Of a stretch of DNA of 64,000 bases, positions 39,531 to 45,861 are shown piece by piece. The notes beneath the pieces are model-generated. The model was not told the DNA's origin and made no database searches. It saw nothing but the letters and a program-made list of their open reading frames with translations. Origin of the DNA: Blastococcus sp. URHD0036 (lineage in GTDB: Bacteria; Actinomycetota; Actinomycetes; Mycobacteriales; Geodermatophilaceae); contig NZ_JNIK01000003.1 of NCBI RefSeq assembly GCF_000701365.1, positions 124,001 to 188,000 on the forward strand, in the 5' to 3' direction. Position 1 is the first letter of the stretch; each line of letters begins with the position of its first letter. Made by a program: the position numbers and the translations under genes.

Positions 39531-41756
39531 TCAGGAGGTCCGGCCGAGGCCCAGCACGGTGACGTCGTCGGTACCCGGCGGGTCGAGAGCGGCGAGCACG
39601 GCGTCGAGCACGGCCGACACGTCGGCGCCGCCGACCGCCGCGGCCGCCTCCAGTGCGGCCAGCCCGTCGTCCACCGGCTCGCCGCGGCGCTCCACCAGGC
39701 CGTCGCTGAACAGCAGCAGCCGCTCGTCGCCGGTCAGCCGCACCCGCTCCTGGGGGTAGACGGCGTCGTCGAGGATGCCCAGGGCGGGGCCCCGGCCGGC
39801 CCGCAGGAGCCCGATCGCGGTGGAGAGGACCGGCAGGTGCCCGGCGCTGGCGACGTCGACCTCGCCGGTCGCCGGGTCCAGCTCCGCGACCACCACGGTC
39901 GCCATCTCCCCCGGCAGGAGCGCGGTGAGCAGCCGGTTCAGCTCCGCCAGCGCCGCGCCGGGCCCGAGGTCGCGCAGCAGCATCGCGCGCAGGGCGTGCC
40001 GGAGCTGGGCGGTGACGGCGGCGGCGGACAGCCCGTGTCCGGCGACGTCGCCCAGCACCAGCGACACCCGGCCGCTGGGCAGCGGGACGAGGTCGTACCA
40101 GTCCCCGCCCACGACGTCGTCGGCGCTGGGCAGGTAGCGGGCGGCGAGGTCCACGCCGGGCACCTTGGGCAGTTCGTCGAGCAGCAGGGTCCGCTGGAGC
40201 GCCGCGGCCATCCGGTTCTCCTGCTCCGCGCGGGCCCGCCCGGCGACGGCGACCTGCTCGCCCAGCGACCGGGCCGCCGCGACCTCGTGCGCCTGCCACG
40301 GCCGCGCGGTGCCGCGCACGATCTCGGTCCACGCCGCGAACGAGCGCCGGGGGGACAGCCGGCCGCTCGCGGCGATCTCCGTCTTGTGCGGGTTGCCGCC
40401 CCACGTCACCTCGCGCGGCGTCTCCGGCCGGAACCAGGCGAGGAAGTCCCCGCCGTCCAGCCCGACGGCGAGCACCCCGCTGGCCGTGCCGGCGAGGTCG
40501 GCGGCCTCCGGCAGCACCTGGGGCATCGCGTCGGTGACCGGCGCTCCGGCCGCCAGCAGCGCCGCCACCAGGGGGCCCACCCGCTCGGCCGGCGGGGTCT
40601 CCCCCAGCAGGCGGAGCCGCCCGTCCAGGCGGACGGCCGCCCCCGCCGCGGGGAACAGCTCCAGCACCGTGGGCCGTCCGCTGCCGTCGTCGTCGGTGAG
40701 GGTGGGCAGGAGCGTCCGGCCGGCCCGGCCGACGGCGGCGACGAGGTCCGCGGAGCGCTGCGCGACGCCGACGACGTCCCCCTGCTCCCCCGCCGCGACC
40801 GTGGTGTGCAGCAGCAGCGAGGCGGTGCGGCCGAGGAACTCGGCGGCGACCCGGTCGGGATAGCTCGGCCGGCGGGGCCCGTCGTAGTGGTGGCAGGCGA
40901 TGAGCCCCCACAGCCGGCCGCGGTCGATGAGCGACACCGACATCGAGGCGACGACGCCCATGTTGGCCAGGTACTCCAGGTGCACCGGCGAGACGCTGCG
41001 CAGCACGGAGCCGGAGAGGTCCAGCGGCCGCCCGGTGCCGGGCACGGCCGCGGGCTCGAGCGGTACCCGGGTGTAGCGGGCGTCGGGGATCAGCCGCAGC
41101 CAGTTCGTCGCGTACAGCGCCCGCGCCTGGGCCGGGATGTCGCTGGCCGGGTACCAGAGGCCGAGGAAGGGCTCGAGGTCCGCCCGCCGGTCCTCGGCGA
41201 CCACCTCGCCGTTCCACTCACGGTCGAAGCGGTAGACCATGACCCGGTCGAAGCCGGTGAGCGCCCGGACGTCGCGGGCGAGCACGGCGGTGAGCTCCTC
41301 GAGCGTGGCCGCGCCCGACAACCGCTGCAGCACCGAGGGCAGCCGCCGGTGCCACGTGGGGCCGGCTTCCGCGGCGCCCTCGAGGAGCTCCCACTCGGTG
41401 ACCAGCAGCCCGTCGGTGCGGTGCACGACCAGGTCCACCTCGCCGCCCGGCAGCGTCAGCCGCAGCGGGTTCAGGTCGGCCAGGTCCCCGGCCAGGCCGG
41501 CGCGCAGCCGCTCCAGGCCCCCGGGGGGCAGCAGGTCGGCGAGCGACCGGCCGGCCACCTGACCGCCGAACACGGTGTCGGCGTTCGCCGAGGCCCCCAC
41601 CACCGCCAGGTCGGGCTCGGTCACGGCCAGGAGCGCCCCGTGCGGCTGCACGGCGCCGGGGACGGCGATCGGCTCGTCCGCGCAGCGCAGCAGCGCCTCG
41701 GACAGCAGCGCCTCGGAGAGCACGGCGTCGGGCAGGGAGCTGTCGGCCGGAGTCAC
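39531..41756 (-). CDS. Bacteriophytochrome with SpoIIE-type PP2C phosphatase output
   Basis: 741 residues: PAS (about 25-115), GAF (about 140-310), PHY (about 320-510), PP2C/SpoIIE phosphatase (about 540-738). The biliverdin-attaching Cys is Cys25 in LRCADEP, at the position used by Deinococcus BphP. Asp206 in PASDIP, a His in SPVHLEYLANMGV and LIACHH complete the chromophore pocket. PRRSFAAW matches the PHY tongue motif PRxSF. The phosphatase has GGDWYD, GDVAGHG and a terminal GTDD for metal binding. No kinase domain exists. Light should therefore control dephosphorylation of a partner, probably the STAS protein encoded just upstream (29 bp). Haem oxygenase is not in the window. Confidence 0.93.
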   Translation of the reverse strand: MTPADSSLPDAVLSEALLSEALLRCADEPIAVPGAVQPHGALLAVTEPDLAVVGASANADTVFGGQVAGRSLADLLPPGGLERLRAGLAGDLADLNPLRLTLPGGEVDLVVHRTDGLLVTEWELLEGAAEAGPTWHRRLPSVLQRLSGAATLEELTAVLARDVRALTGFDRVMVYRFDREWNGEVVAEDRRADLEPFLGLWYPASDIPAQARALYATNWLRLIPDARYTRVPLEPAAVPGTGRPLDLSGSVLRSVSPVHLEYLANMGVVASMSVSLIDRGRLWGLIACHHYDGPRRPSYPDRVAAEFLGRTASLLLHTTVAAGEQGDVVGVAQRSADLVAAVGRAGRTLLPTLTDDDGSGRPTVLELFPAAGAAVRLDGRLRLLGETPPAERVGPLVAALLAAGAPVTDAMPQVLPEAADLAGTASGVLAVGLDGGDFLAWFRPETPREVTWGGNPHKTEIAASGRLSPRRSFAAWTEIVRGTARPWQAHEVAAARSLGEQVAVAGRARAEQENRMAAALQRTLLLDELPKVPGVDLAARYLPSADDVVGGDWYDLVPLPSGRVSLVLGDVAGHGLSAAAVTAQLRHALRAMLLRDLGPGAALAELNRLLTALLPGEMATVVVAELDPATGEVDVASAGHLPVLSTAIGLLRAGRGPALGILDDAVYPQERVRLTGDERLLLFSDGLVERRGEPVDDGLAALEAAAAVGGADVSAVLDAVLAALDPPGTDDVTVLGLGRTS

Positions 41757-41785
41757 CGGCCGACCCTACGAGCCGGTGCCCGACC

Positions 41786-42136
41786 TCACGAGCCGACGCC
41801 CCCGCCCGCGAAGCCGGCCTTCTCCACGATCGGCACCGCCTGCTGCAGGTCGAGCAGGTCGAGGACCAGCCGGACCGGGCGGTTGCCGGTCGGGCAGACC
41901 ACCTGGAGGGCGACGCCGAGCCGGTCGGCCGCGCGCGCGGTGCGGACCAGCTGTCGCGCGCCGGAGGAGTCGAGGAAGGTGGTCTCGGTCAGGTCGACCA
42001 CCAGCGAGGCCGGCCCGGCCTCCAGGACACCGGTCACCGCCTCCGCCAGCTGCGGGGCCGTCGCGATGTCGAGCTCCCCGCGCACCCGCAGGGCCGGCCG
42101 TCCGTGGACGGTCGTGCGCTGGACTTCGAACAGCAC
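41786..42136 (-). CDS. STAS-domain anti-anti-sigma factor-like protein
   Basis: 116 residues from GTG 42136 (AGG 5 nt upstream); ATG 42229 would add an Arg-rich extension. GELDIATAPQLAEAV and FLDSSGARQLV are the STAS landmarks. Ser58 in DSSG is at the SpoIIAA phosphorylation position. The phosphatase in the next gene, 29 bp downstream on the same strand, would be the natural partner. In partner switching the dephosphorylated STAS protein binds an anti-sigma kinase and frees a sigma factor. Confidence 0.92.
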   Translation of the reverse strand: MLFEVQRTTVHGRPALRVRGELDIATAPQLAEAVTGVLEAGPASLVVDLTETTFLDSSGARQLVRTARAADRLGVALQVVCPTGNRPVRLVLDLLDLQQAVPIVEKAGFAGGGVGS

Positions 42137-42265
42137 GGACCTCAGCCTCTCGCCGGTTCGCGGCCGCACCGACCGGACCGCGGACACACCGGAGAACACC
42201 CTATTTCGCCACCCTCGCCCTGTCGCCACCGGTTCCCCGGAAGCGTGCCGCGGCGCAGGGACGCG

Positions 42266-42311: not shown

Positions 42312-43718
42312 CTACTCGGAGATGCGGGCGGTCTCCCGGCGGACGGTGACCGGCTCGGCCAGGCGCTGCTCGTCGACCACCTTCTGCAGCTTGGCGACGG
42401 TCTCCACCAGGCCCGGGCCGAGGCGCTTGCCGGGCGTGAACGTCGCCGGCAGGTGCTTGAGACCGTTGATGACGCCGACGGTGTCGTAGTGCACGGCGCC
42501 GTCGGGGTCGCAGACGAAGTCCGGCATCCGGTCCAGGACCGCCTTGAGCATCGTCTTGAAGGTCGCCCGCGCCACGTTCGAACCGATGCACCGGTGCACG
42601 CCCAGGCCGAAGCTGGCGTGCCGGTTGCCCTTGCGGTCCAGCTGGATCTCGTGCGGGTTCTCGAAGACCTTCTCGTCGCGGTTGGCCATCGCCCACGACA
42701 GCCAGAGCCGGTCGCCCTCGCGGAACTGGACGCCGTGGATCTCCTCGTCCTTGGCCACCGTGCGCCCGTCGCCGGGGGCCGGGGTGTAGAAGCGCAGGAA
42801 CTCCTCCGTGGCGCTGTCGCGCAGCTCCTCCCACTCCGCGATCAGCCGGGAGCGCTGGTCGGGGTGCTCCGACAGCCACTCCAGCGAGTGGGCGGTCAGC
42901 GCCGTCGTGGTGTCGAAGCCGCCACCGATGAGCAGGCCGACGGCGCCCATGACGGCCATGTCGTCGGGGTTGGTGCCGCCGATGTCGGCCTTGATCAGGG
43001 CGTCGACCAGGCCGGGACGCGGGTTGGCGCGGATGCCGGCGATGTAGCCGAACGACCGCATCCCCATCTCCTGCTGCTTCTGCTGCACGATCACGGCCTC
43101 GGGGGTGCCGGGCTTGGTGTAGACGGCGGCGTGGATGGGCTCGACGTAGGTCTCGTAGTCGTCCATCGGGAAGCCGAGCATCGCCATCGTCAGCACGGCC
43201 GGGACGATGTTGGCGAGGTCGTCGACGAAGTCGATCCGGCCGGTCTCGATGACCTCGTCCAGGGAGGCGCGGGTGATCTCGTCGATGACCGGCTGCCAGC
43301 GCGCCACGGCCGCCGGCGACAGGTAGGGGTTGAGCGCGTTGCGGTAGTGCCGCTGGGCCGGCGGGTCCATGCCGAGGAACATGCCGCCGAGCCGCCCGGG
43401 CCCGCCGTACTGCAGCTGACGCATCTCCAGCGGCGGCGGCGGGATCGAGATGCCCGTGTACCGCTCACCACCGCGCTCGTTGTAGGGGTCGTCGTCGTTG
43501 GACAGCACGTCGGCCCGGCGGGCGGTGTCGAACAGCTCCTGGTTGCCGGTGACGAACCAGTAGCCGCCGTGGGTGTCGTTCCAGGCGATCGGCTTGGTGG
43601 CGTGGAGCTCGTCGGCCAGCCGCTCGAACTCGGTCCGGTACTGGTCCCCGTGCCGGTCGAGCTCGATCCGCAGCGCGCTGCGGTCCTCGCCGGATCGGAT
43701 GGTGTCGTCGACGGTCAT
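42312..43718 (-). CDS. Cytochrome P450, tandem copy 1
   Basis: 468 residues. The I-helix oxygen motif is GGGFDTTTALTAHSLEW, the ExxR motif is EEFLRFY region, and the haem-binding loop is FGLGVHRCIGS with Cys377. Soluble bacterial type, so it needs ferredoxin and reductase, which are not encoded nearby. Start ATG 43718 with GGGAG upstream. It is 83 bp downstream of a close paralogue. The sequence pair is nearly identical in long stretches but diverges around residues 75-105 and 195-235, which are substrate-contact zones in P450s. Substrate unknown. Confidence 0.95.
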   Translation of the reverse strand: MTVDDTIRSGEDRSALRIELDRHGDQYRTEFERLADELHATKPIAWNDTHGGYWFVTGNQELFDTARRADVLSNDDDPYNERGGERYTGISIPPPPLEMRQLQYGGPGRLGGMFLGMDPPAQRHYRNALNPYLSPAAVARWQPVIDEITRASLDEVIETGRIDFVDDLANIVPAVLTMAMLGFPMDDYETYVEPIHAAVYTKPGTPEAVIVQQKQQEMGMRSFGYIAGIRANPRPGLVDALIKADIGGTNPDDMAVMGAVGLLIGGGFDTTTALTAHSLEWLSEHPDQRSRLIAEWEELRDSATEEFLRFYTPAPGDGRTVAKDEEIHGVQFREGDRLWLSWAMANRDEKVFENPHEIQLDRKGNRHASFGLGVHRCIGSNVARATFKTMLKAVLDRMPDFVCDPDGAVHYDTVGVINGLKHLPATFTPGKRLGPGLVETVAKLQKVVDEQRLAEPVTVRRETARISE

Positions 43719-43801: not shown

Positions 43802-45202
43802 TCAGGTGAGGCGCGCGGCCTCGCGCTGGACGGTGACGGGCTCGGCGAGCCGCTGCTCGTCGACCACCGTCTGCAGCCGCTGCACGGTCTCCTCGATGCC
43901 CGGGCCGAGGCGCGTGCCGGGGGTGAAGGTGGCCGGCAGGTGCTTCATGCCGTTGATGACGCCGACGGTGTCGTAGTGCACCGCGCCCTCGGGGTCGCAG
44001 ACGAAGTCGGGCATCCGGTCGAGGACCGCCTTGAGCATCGTCTTGAAGGTGGCCCGGGCGACGTTGGAGCCGATGCACCGGTGGACGCCGAGGCCGAAGC
44101 TGGCGTGCCGGTTGCCCTTGCGGTCCAGCTTGACCTCGTGCGGGTCCTCGAAGACGGTGGCGTCGCGGTTGGCCATCGCCCACGACAGCCAGAGGCGCTC
44201 GCCCTCCTTGAACTCCACACCGTGGATCTCCGCGTCGATCGCGATCGTCCGCCCGTCGCCCGGGGCCGGCGTGTAGAAGCGGAGGAACTCCTCGGTGGCG
44301 CTGTCGCGCAGCTCCTCCCACTCGGCGATCAGCCGCGAGCGCTGGTCCGGGTGCTCGCTCAGCCACTCCAGCGAGTGCGCGGTCAGGGCCGTCGTGGTGT
44401 CGAACCCGCCGCCGATGAGCAGCGACACGGCGCCGTAGACGTCGAAGTCCTCGGGCTTGCGGCCGGTGATCTCGGCGTTGATGAGCGCGTTCACCAGACC
44501 GGGCCGCGGGTTGGCCCGGATGTCGGCGATGTAGCCGAAGGTCCGCATCGCCATCGCGATGCTCTGCTCGACCACGCGCTCCATCTCGGGCGTGCCGGGC
44601 TTGGTGTACACCTGCGCGTGGGTCGGCTCGACGTAGGTCTCGTAGTCGGCCATGGGGAAGCCGAGCATCGCCATCGTGAGCACCGCCGGGACGATGTTGG
44701 CGAGGTCGTCGACGAAGTCGATCCGACCGGTCTCGATCACCTCGTCGATCGCGGCCCGGGTGATCTCGTCGATCACCGGCTGCCACCGGGCGACGGCCGC
44801 CGGCGACAGGTAGGCGTTCAGCGCGTTGCGGTAGTGCCGCTGCACCGGCGGGTCGAGCATCAGGAAGTTGCCGCCGAGCGCCCCGGGCGGCCCGGCCATC
44901 GCCTTGGCCTGCTCCCGGTCGAGGGTCGGGATGGTGATGCCCCCGTAGCCCTTCCGGTCGCCGTGCGGGTCGCTGTCGTTGGACAGCACGTCCGCCCGCC
45001 GGGCGGTGTCGAACAGCTCCTGGTTGCCGGAGACGAACCAGTAGCCGCCGTGGGTGTCGTTCCAGGCGATGGGGGCCGTGGCGTGCAGGTCGTCGGCGAG
45101 CTCGGCGAACTCGGTCCGGTAGCGGTCACCGTGCCGGTCGATCTCGATGACCCGCGGCGCCCGATCCGCGGCGGGTGCGGTGCTCGTCTCGTCGACGCTC
45201 AC
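43802..45202 (-). CDS. Cytochrome P450, tandem copy 2
   Basis: 466 residues from GTG 45202 (GAGAGGAA upstream). Same motifs as the downstream copy: GGGFDTTTALT in the I helix and FGLGVHRCIGS with Cys376. The region equivalent to the B-C loop differs (TLDREQAKAMAG against PLEMRQLQYGG). This is first in the two-gene operon, with a candidate promoter region at 45203-45432. The duplicates may have divided substrates or act on successive positions. Confidence 0.95.
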   Translation of the reverse strand: MSVDETSTAPAADRAPRVIEIDRHGDRYRTEFAELADDLHATAPIAWNDTHGGYWFVSGNQELFDTARRADVLSNDSDPHGDRKGYGGITIPTLDREQAKAMAGPPGALGGNFLMLDPPVQRHYRNALNAYLSPAAVARWQPVIDEITRAAIDEVIETGRIDFVDDLANIVPAVLTMAMLGFPMADYETYVEPTHAQVYTKPGTPEMERVVEQSIAMAMRTFGYIADIRANPRPGLVNALINAEITGRKPEDFDVYGAVSLLIGGGFDTTTALTAHSLEWLSEHPDQRSRLIAEWEELRDSATEEFLRFYTPAPGDGRTIAIDAEIHGVEFKEGERLWLSWAMANRDATVFEDPHEVKLDRKGNRHASFGLGVHRCIGSNVARATFKTMLKAVLDRMPDFVCDPEGAVHYDTVGVINGMKHLPATFTPGTRLGPGIEETVQRLQTVVDEQRLAEPVTVQREAARLT

Positions 45203-45268
45203 GACGGTTCCTCTCGTTGGCACGCTGCGGAGAGCCGGGTGCACCCCGACCCGTGACCGCCTTCACAG

Positions 45269-45432: not shown

Positions 45433-45861
45433 ATGGACATCGCGTTCACCGTCACCCTGCCGGTCGACACCGGCAGCGTCCCGTTCGTCCGCGGCCTCTG
45501 CCGGCAGGCGCTCGAGCACCTGCGCGTGCCGCCGTCGGTCGTCGACGAGGTCGCCCTAGCGCTGACCGAGGCGTGCGCCAACGTCGTCCAGCACAGCGGT
45601 GGGGACGCCCGCTACGAGGTCGGCGTCGCCATCGACGACGACCGCTGCCGCATCACGGTGTGGGACGACGGCGAGGGCCTCGACCCGCGGGCGGCGCCGA
45701 ACACCGCCACCGGTCGCGAGCTGGCCGAGGGCGGGACCGGGCTGCTGCTGATGAAGGCGCTCGTGGACCGCCTGGACTTCCGGCACGACCCGGACGGGCG
45801 GCACCGGGTGACGCTGGTGAAGCAGCTGGGCAGCCGTCCGGCGCTGCGCCTGCTCGACTGA
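45433..45861 (+). CDS. RsbW-like ATP-binding protein (anti-sigma kinase type)
   Basis: 142 residues of the GHKL ATPase fold alone. The N box is ALTEACANVVQHSGG, the G1 box is WDDGEGLDPR, and EGGTGLLLMKALVD is the G2 region. Single-domain proteins of this type are serine kinases for STAS proteins and sequester sigma factors. It is 3.3 kb from the STAS-phytochrome phosphatase pair, with the P450s between. Start ATG 45433 with GGAGGGAG upstream. The link to that pair is plausible but not shown. Confidence 0.88.
   Translation: MDIAFTVTLPVDTGSVPFVRGLCRQALEHLRVPPSVVDEVALALTEACANVVQHSGGDARYEVGVAIDDDRCRITVWDDGEGLDPRAAPNTATGRELAEGGTGLLLMKALVDRLDFRHDPDGRHRVTLVKQLGSRPALRLLD

Follow-up and report, generated by a model that had tools for sequence, protein, structure and literature searches.

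A predicted light-controlled partner switch comprising a phytochrome phosphatase, a STAS protein and an RsbW-like kinase in the Geodermatophilaceae

We consider it likely that three genes of the soil actinobacterium Blastococcus sp. URHD0036, which encode a phytochrome phosphatase (phyA), a STAS antagonist and an RsbW-like kinase, constitute a light-controlled partner switch. The genes lie in the window, the 64,000-nucleotide stretch of DNA that was analyzed, which is part of contig C3 in a 5.18-Mb genome of 99.97% completeness. In the mechanism that we propose, biliverdin would be bound by phyA at Cys25; red/far-red photoconversion would cause the tongue of the PHY domain to refold and would alter the fixed-length helical linker of the dimer, and the altered linker would change the activity of the SpoIIE-type phosphatase. 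The substrate of the phosphatase would be the neighboring STAS protein, which the RsbW-like kinase, the product of the divergent gene, would phosphorylate at Ser57. The unphosphorylated STAS protein would bind the kinase, which would then let go of its client; the most probable client is an alternative sigma factor whose gene lies elsewhere.

The phytochrome phosphatase and its chromophore supply

The phyA gene (positions 39531 to 41756, minus strand) encodes a 741-residue PAS-GAF-PHY-SpoIIE protein with matches over the Pfam cutoffs for the PAS_2 domain (residues 25 to 123; 41388 to 41684), the GAF domain (residues 152 to 312; 40821 to 41303), the PHY domain (residues 361 to 503; 40248 to 40676) and a SpoIIE-type PPM phosphatase domain (residues 560 to 737; 39546 to 40079), all on the minus strand. 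The initial annotation of this DNA had described a photosensor that retains its chromophore residues and carries a phosphatase in place of a histidine kinase, and both parts of that description held when examined in detail. The protein has Cys25, the expected site of biliverdin attachment (codon at 41682 to 41684, minus strand); the PASDIP (residues 203 to 208, including Asp206), SPVH (His259) and ACHH (His289) motifs of the GAF domain; and, in the PHY domain, the PRxSF tongue motif as PRRSF (residues 469 to 473). A PAS-GAF-PHY module with an N-terminal Cys, a DIP motif, a His pair and a PRxSF tongue, as in phyA, is what is expected of a bacteriophytochrome.

Orthologs of phyA, here termed A, were found in 55 genomes of the family, and the 52 that were intact in one frame were aligned, the other 3 being left out. 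Asp206, His259, His289 and the PRxSF motif were present in all 52 aligned sequences, and the position of Cys25 was occupied by Cys in 51 of them, the exception (L093) having Ser. In the three genomes left out (G409, G402 and G427; loci L071, L072 and L111), phyA is split over more than one frame, which may be real or a sequencing error; the STAS and HATPase genes are still there.

The output domain was equally well conserved, with the GGDWYD, GD, GHG, SDG and DD motifs found in 52/52 A orthologs. Asp552, which lies just ahead of the start of the Pfam SpoIIE match, and Asp570, Asp685, Asp730 and Asp731, which lie inside it, were kept in every one of these rows; the metal ligands of SpoIIE itself are named in PMC3517971, and the equivalence of the phyA residues to them was assigned by motif, not by structure alignment. 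With a SpoIIE domain and metal-binding Asp residues, phyA has the makeup of a SpoIIE/RsbU-type PPM phosphatase. The NCBIfam BphP equivalog model, which is of the histidine-kinase type, gave 296.6 bits against a cutoff of 1040, and its match stopped at residue 517, before the SpoIIE output domain. When the phyA model was searched with Foldseek, all 50 matches listed were phytochrome structures, covering the sensor part. In total, the genome has 2 PHY matches and 18 SpoIIE matches.

The AlphaFold2 model of the phyA monomer (mean pLDDT, 89.3; pTM, 0.76) has a predicted continuous helix at residues 489 to 524 (40185 to 40292, minus strand), running from the PHY domain toward the phosphatase; phyA may dimerize. 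The distance from Trp487 to the GGDWYD motif was 63 residues in 52/52 A rows and in 23 of the 24 rows outside A, which comprised 21 B sequences (B being the second phytochrome described below), two more distant PP2C phytochromes (L013 and L014) and L092, the exception. Alignment A2, where identity goes down to 41%, showed the same spacing in 40 of its 42 rows, the remaining two being one residue shorter (62 residues) near GGD. At locus L092 (L092:8478-13449; G490:C18), no phosphatase domain was found in the phytochrome frame, but a second, adjoining frame has a SpoIIE-like match. Control of PPM phosphatases by a coiled-coil or helical linker has been reported for the RsbU type (PMC12143880), in a text where the word "phytochrome" is absent. 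The nearly constant spacing of the phyA type contrasts with PadC, for which linkers of several different lengths occur and 54% of them differ by multiples of seven (PMC9587094).

The second phytochrome of the genome, B (G000:C12:76572-78818), is also a PAS_2-GAF-PHY-SpoIIE protein and is 47% identical to A. It directly follows the genome's single heme oxygenase match, the stop of which overlaps the probable GTG start of B; of the 21 B loci fetched, 20 have a heme oxygenase ahead of B. No STAS or HATPase gene was found beside B at the heme oxygenase-B pair (G000:C12:75934-78818; L053:7935-10864). Thirteen of the 55 A genomes had no B match; at the usual flank of B, fragments of B were seen in two of them (G421 and G456) and none in the other 11, and an intact B was seen at that flank in none of the 13. 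When the genome's own heme oxygenase was used as the query, a heme oxygenase was found in 13/13 of these A-only genomes, at 64 to 73% identity. The Pfam heme oxygenase model was rejected as a test of biliverdin supply: it missed 7 of the 13 genomes, and because the genome's own protein matched in each of the 13, these misses represent a failure of sensitivity. Among the 22 family genomes with neither an A nor a B match, heme oxygenase was matched in 2, both of them incomplete genomes, one match being partial and one full length; it was found in none of the 7 that passed 90% completeness, the 15 others being less complete. The retention of heme oxygenase where B is lacking fits a requirement of A for biliverdin and, at the level of gene content, suggests that A uses this chromophore.

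These data also bear on the nature of the signal. It is unlikely that phyA is a STAS phosphatase whose main signal is temperature, redox or biliverdin/heme supply instead of light. One natural A sequence, L093, with its Ser in place of the binding Cys, would suit such a role; however, the invariance of Asp206, His259, His289 and the PRxSF motif in the aligned A rows argues against it, and the presence of heme oxygenase in every A-only genome favors the use of a bilin, though not light as the signal. Light is the preferred input of the proposed switch.

The STAS and kinase genes and their inheritance with phyA

The STAS gene (41786 to 42136, minus strand) was identified by Pfam and encodes a 116-residue STAS-only protein of the anti-anti-sigma type. 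It lies upstream of phyA, with a gap of 29 bp in the window. A longer frame (41786 to 42229, minus strand) is also over the Pfam cutoff, and the GTG at 42136 begins the conserved part. Counted from that GTG, the STAS motif reads D56-S57-S58-G59. When the protein was aligned to solved chains, Ser57 (codon at 41966 to 41968, minus strand) fell opposite residue 58 of SpoIIAA (chain 1th8_B) and opposite the sole Ser of the DSTG motif of RsbV; in chain 1tid_B, the S58A mutant, it aligned with Ala. The Ser57 position was Ser in 55/55 STAS orthologs, and the position that follows was variable: the motif was DSSG in 53 orthologs, DSTG in L056 and DSAG in L128. A phosphorylatable Ser thus follows a conserved Asp. 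RsbW phosphorylates RsbV at Ser56 and contacts this residue through Glu49 (PMC7340262). Because of the alignment to SpoIIAA residue 58 and to the RsbV DSTG Ser, the predicted phosphosite is Ser57, not Ser58; the initial annotation was right that a phosphorylatable Ser has been kept but placed it at Ser58.

The third gene (45433 to 45861, plus strand) falls beyond the region of 39531 to 42136 to which that annotation was confined. It encodes a 142-residue RsbW-like HATPase_c_2 protein, a predicted serine kinase/anti-sigma factor, and was assigned by its Pfam match, its co-occurrence with A and its place beside the A locus. Its ATG start is preceded by a ribosome-binding-like sequence, GGAGGGAG, and its closest solved relative is RsbW (6m36). 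The E..N box and the DxGxG motif were present in 53/53 orthologs and the GxGL motif in 50 of the 53, so that the nucleotide-binding boxes expected of a partner-switch kinase are intact.

A loci of 9 to 20 kb each were fetched for all 55 A genomes. A comparison of genomes for conservation of the operon had been proposed as a check in the initial annotation; when it was carried out, every one of the 55 A loci of the Geodermatophilaceae had the STAS gene upstream of phyA and in the same orientation. The HATPase gene was divergent from the STAS gene in 53 of the 55 loci and immediately beside it in 50, where the gap, measured between match ends, was 56 to 85 bp. The spacers of these 50 loci contain a largely conserved TAC.CT sequence, which resembles a -10 box directed toward STAS-phyA. 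The annotation had read the locus as a two-gene operon; the adjacency of STAS and phyA was borne out, but the unit was incomplete, since the kinase gene belongs to it, and most relatives have a three-gene cassette.

Two genomes from two genera, G419 and G424, have an intact phyA and STAS gene and no HATPase match; therefore, the kinase is either not indispensable or replaceable. A flavodoxin-like gene, named by eye, adjoins the STAS gene in both (L061:11574-12267 and L120:7975-8900). As a substitute for the kinase it was ruled out, since 13 further A loci also have it.

In the genus of the window (3 genomes), the STAS and HATPase genes are separated by two cytochrome P450 genes, with gaps of 3.3, 3.3 and 7.7 kb. 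In the window, these genes (42312 to 43718 and 43802 to 45244, both on the minus strand; the second was identified by Pfam and locus comparison) are a tandem pair related to each other, and the genes onward to 51032 (TetR, thiolase-like, ChsH2-like OB-fold and CoA-transferase III) resemble a catabolic cluster. When one gene of the pair served as the phmmer query (E ≤ 1e-60) against the 55 A loci, P450 genes were found in just those 3, which rules them out as members of the cassette. It might be argued that in this genus STAS and phyA have joined a P450 operon and control the P450 pair or are controlled together with it, since the two P450 genes, STAS and phyA are consecutive on the minus strand; however, the restriction of the P450 genes to one genus, together with a HATPase-STAS gap of at most 85 bp in 50 other A loci, makes this reading very improbable. 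The three-gene cassette, with the P450 pair lying inside it in one genus, is the arrangement that we prefer.

Across 112 genomes of the family, 90 had a match to the A protein at E ≤ 1e-60 and 55 had A itself, with at most nine candidates per genome scored as A or B. The genomes with a STAS match at E ≤ 1e-15 were the 55 A genomes and no others, and a HATPase match at the same threshold was found in 53 genomes, every one of them an A genome; neither was matched in the 57 genomes without A. These counts come from related genomes and do not represent independent events. The same pattern was seen within genera: three A-bearing genera include ten genomes that are at least 95% complete and lack A (G406, G426, G428, G430, G449, G450, G455, G457, G458 and G459), and none of the ten had a STAS or HATPase match at E ≤ 1e-15. 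A loose first search returned about 20 to 50 candidates per good genome for STAS and likewise for HATPase; therefore, further STAS and HATPase genes of lower similarity are probably present in these genomes. Linkage of STAS to phyA does not by itself demonstrate light control; taken together, the conserved residues and the co-occurrence in the 112 genomes support the earlier proposal that a light-sensing phosphatase may act on the adjoining STAS protein.

Relatives beyond the A group were taken as the best 80 loci from a scan of named genomes, among which the highest-identity relatives of phyA were from Blastococcus and Geodermatophilus; 64 had a PP2C output, all of them from Actinomycetota, and 16 did not. 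With the caveat that some flanks were short, STAS and/or HATPase genes lay within about 1 kb of the phytochrome in 7/7 A rows and in 9 of the 48 other PP2C phytochromes, leaving 39 with neither, and in 0/9 B rows and 0/16 non-PP2C phytochromes. In a tree built by a quick method, with SH-aLRT support only and with long branches flagged, A grouped with Quadrisphaera, Cellulomonas and Nocardioides/Aeromicrobium/Kineococcus sequences and B with mycobacterial, Cellulomonas and Georgenia sequences; one PP2C row (L070) was paired with a non-PP2C row through long branches. Both STAS and HATPase genes were nearby, in differing order, in Mycobacterium asiaticum (L160), M. gordonae (L169), Nocardioides (L165) and Cellulomonas (L175), hinting that such cassettes may have been assembled repeatedly.

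The client of the kinase

The initial annotation had placed a sigma factor at the end of the pathway, a step for which we found no local support: phmmer searches with five sigma queries from the genome itself found no sigma gene at E ≤ 1e-6 in any of the 55 stretches of 9 to 20 kb fetched around A. In Bacillus partner switches the sigma gene is in the same cluster, an arrangement that is not required of all partner switches. The genome has eight SigBFG matches, and the single one over the cutoff (C13:131255-131926) is on a contig other than that of the window, about 1.4 kb away from a SpoIIE match other than that of phyA.

It is possible, if the less probable case, that the cassette is a light-controlled partner switch whose client is not a sigma factor and that some other protein is the target of the kinase or of the STAS protein. 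The lack of a sigma match in the A loci and the location of the sole SigBFG match over the cutoff would agree with such an output, and STAS proteins with outputs below transcription exist, SypA being one example (PMC10120452). On the other side, the closest solved relative of the kinase is RsbW, and sigma factors are the targets of canonical members of this kind (PMC8256260). Our preferred client would still be an alternative sigma factor with its gene outside the cassette.

Relationship to known systems

The proposed switch resembles the RsbU/RsbV/RsbW and SpoIIE/SpoIIAA/SpoIIAB systems of Bacillus subtilis in having a PPM phosphatase, a STAS antagonist with a phosphorylatable Ser and a HATPase kinase. 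Unlike those systems, its sensor is a complete phytochrome module, and no sigma gene was found near the cassette. Likewise, phyA shares the PAS-GAF-PHY module, with the Cys, DIP, His and PRxSF elements, with bacteriophytochromes of histidine-kinase or GGDEF output (DrBphP and PadC), a class in which it has solved relatives by both sequence and fold; however, its output is a Ser/Thr phosphatase. Most bacterial phytochromes that have been studied at the bench signal via histidine kinases or cyclic-di-GMP enzymes.

The PAS-GAF-PHY-SpoIIE/PPM architecture already appears in the legend to Fig. 2 of PMC9587094, a distance tree of effectors; the phytochromes there have a domain architecture identical to that of phyA, and STAS or kinase neighbors are not mentioned in that part of the source. 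Flavin-based blue-light receptors associated with STAS or SpoIIE domains (PMC4844311) also bring light into STAS/PPM signaling; unlike phyA, they use flavin and blue light and no bilin. Among the titles and abstract openings of the matches listed in a literature search, the coverage of which mostly excludes subscription journals and preprints, no paper on a phytochrome with STAS and kinase partners was found. The domain architecture and the partner-switch mode are therefore known, and what appears to be new is a phytochrome as the sensor in a cassette with STAS and kinase genes.

A sensor, its likely substrate and its likely kinase have been identified together, in a unit small enough to be reconstituted. 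The cassette could directly test whether the coiled-coil linker rule described for RsbU-type phosphatases (PMC12143880) also transmits a photon signal, and a red-light-controlled protein phosphatase may find optogenetic use. For the Geodermatophilaceae, we judge it somewhat more probable than not that a self-contained red/far-red partner switch is inherited as a unit, alongside the partnerless phytochrome phosphatase B, and that red light would be read in these bacteria via the dephosphorylation of a protein serine instead of a His-Asp relay or cyclic di-GMP.
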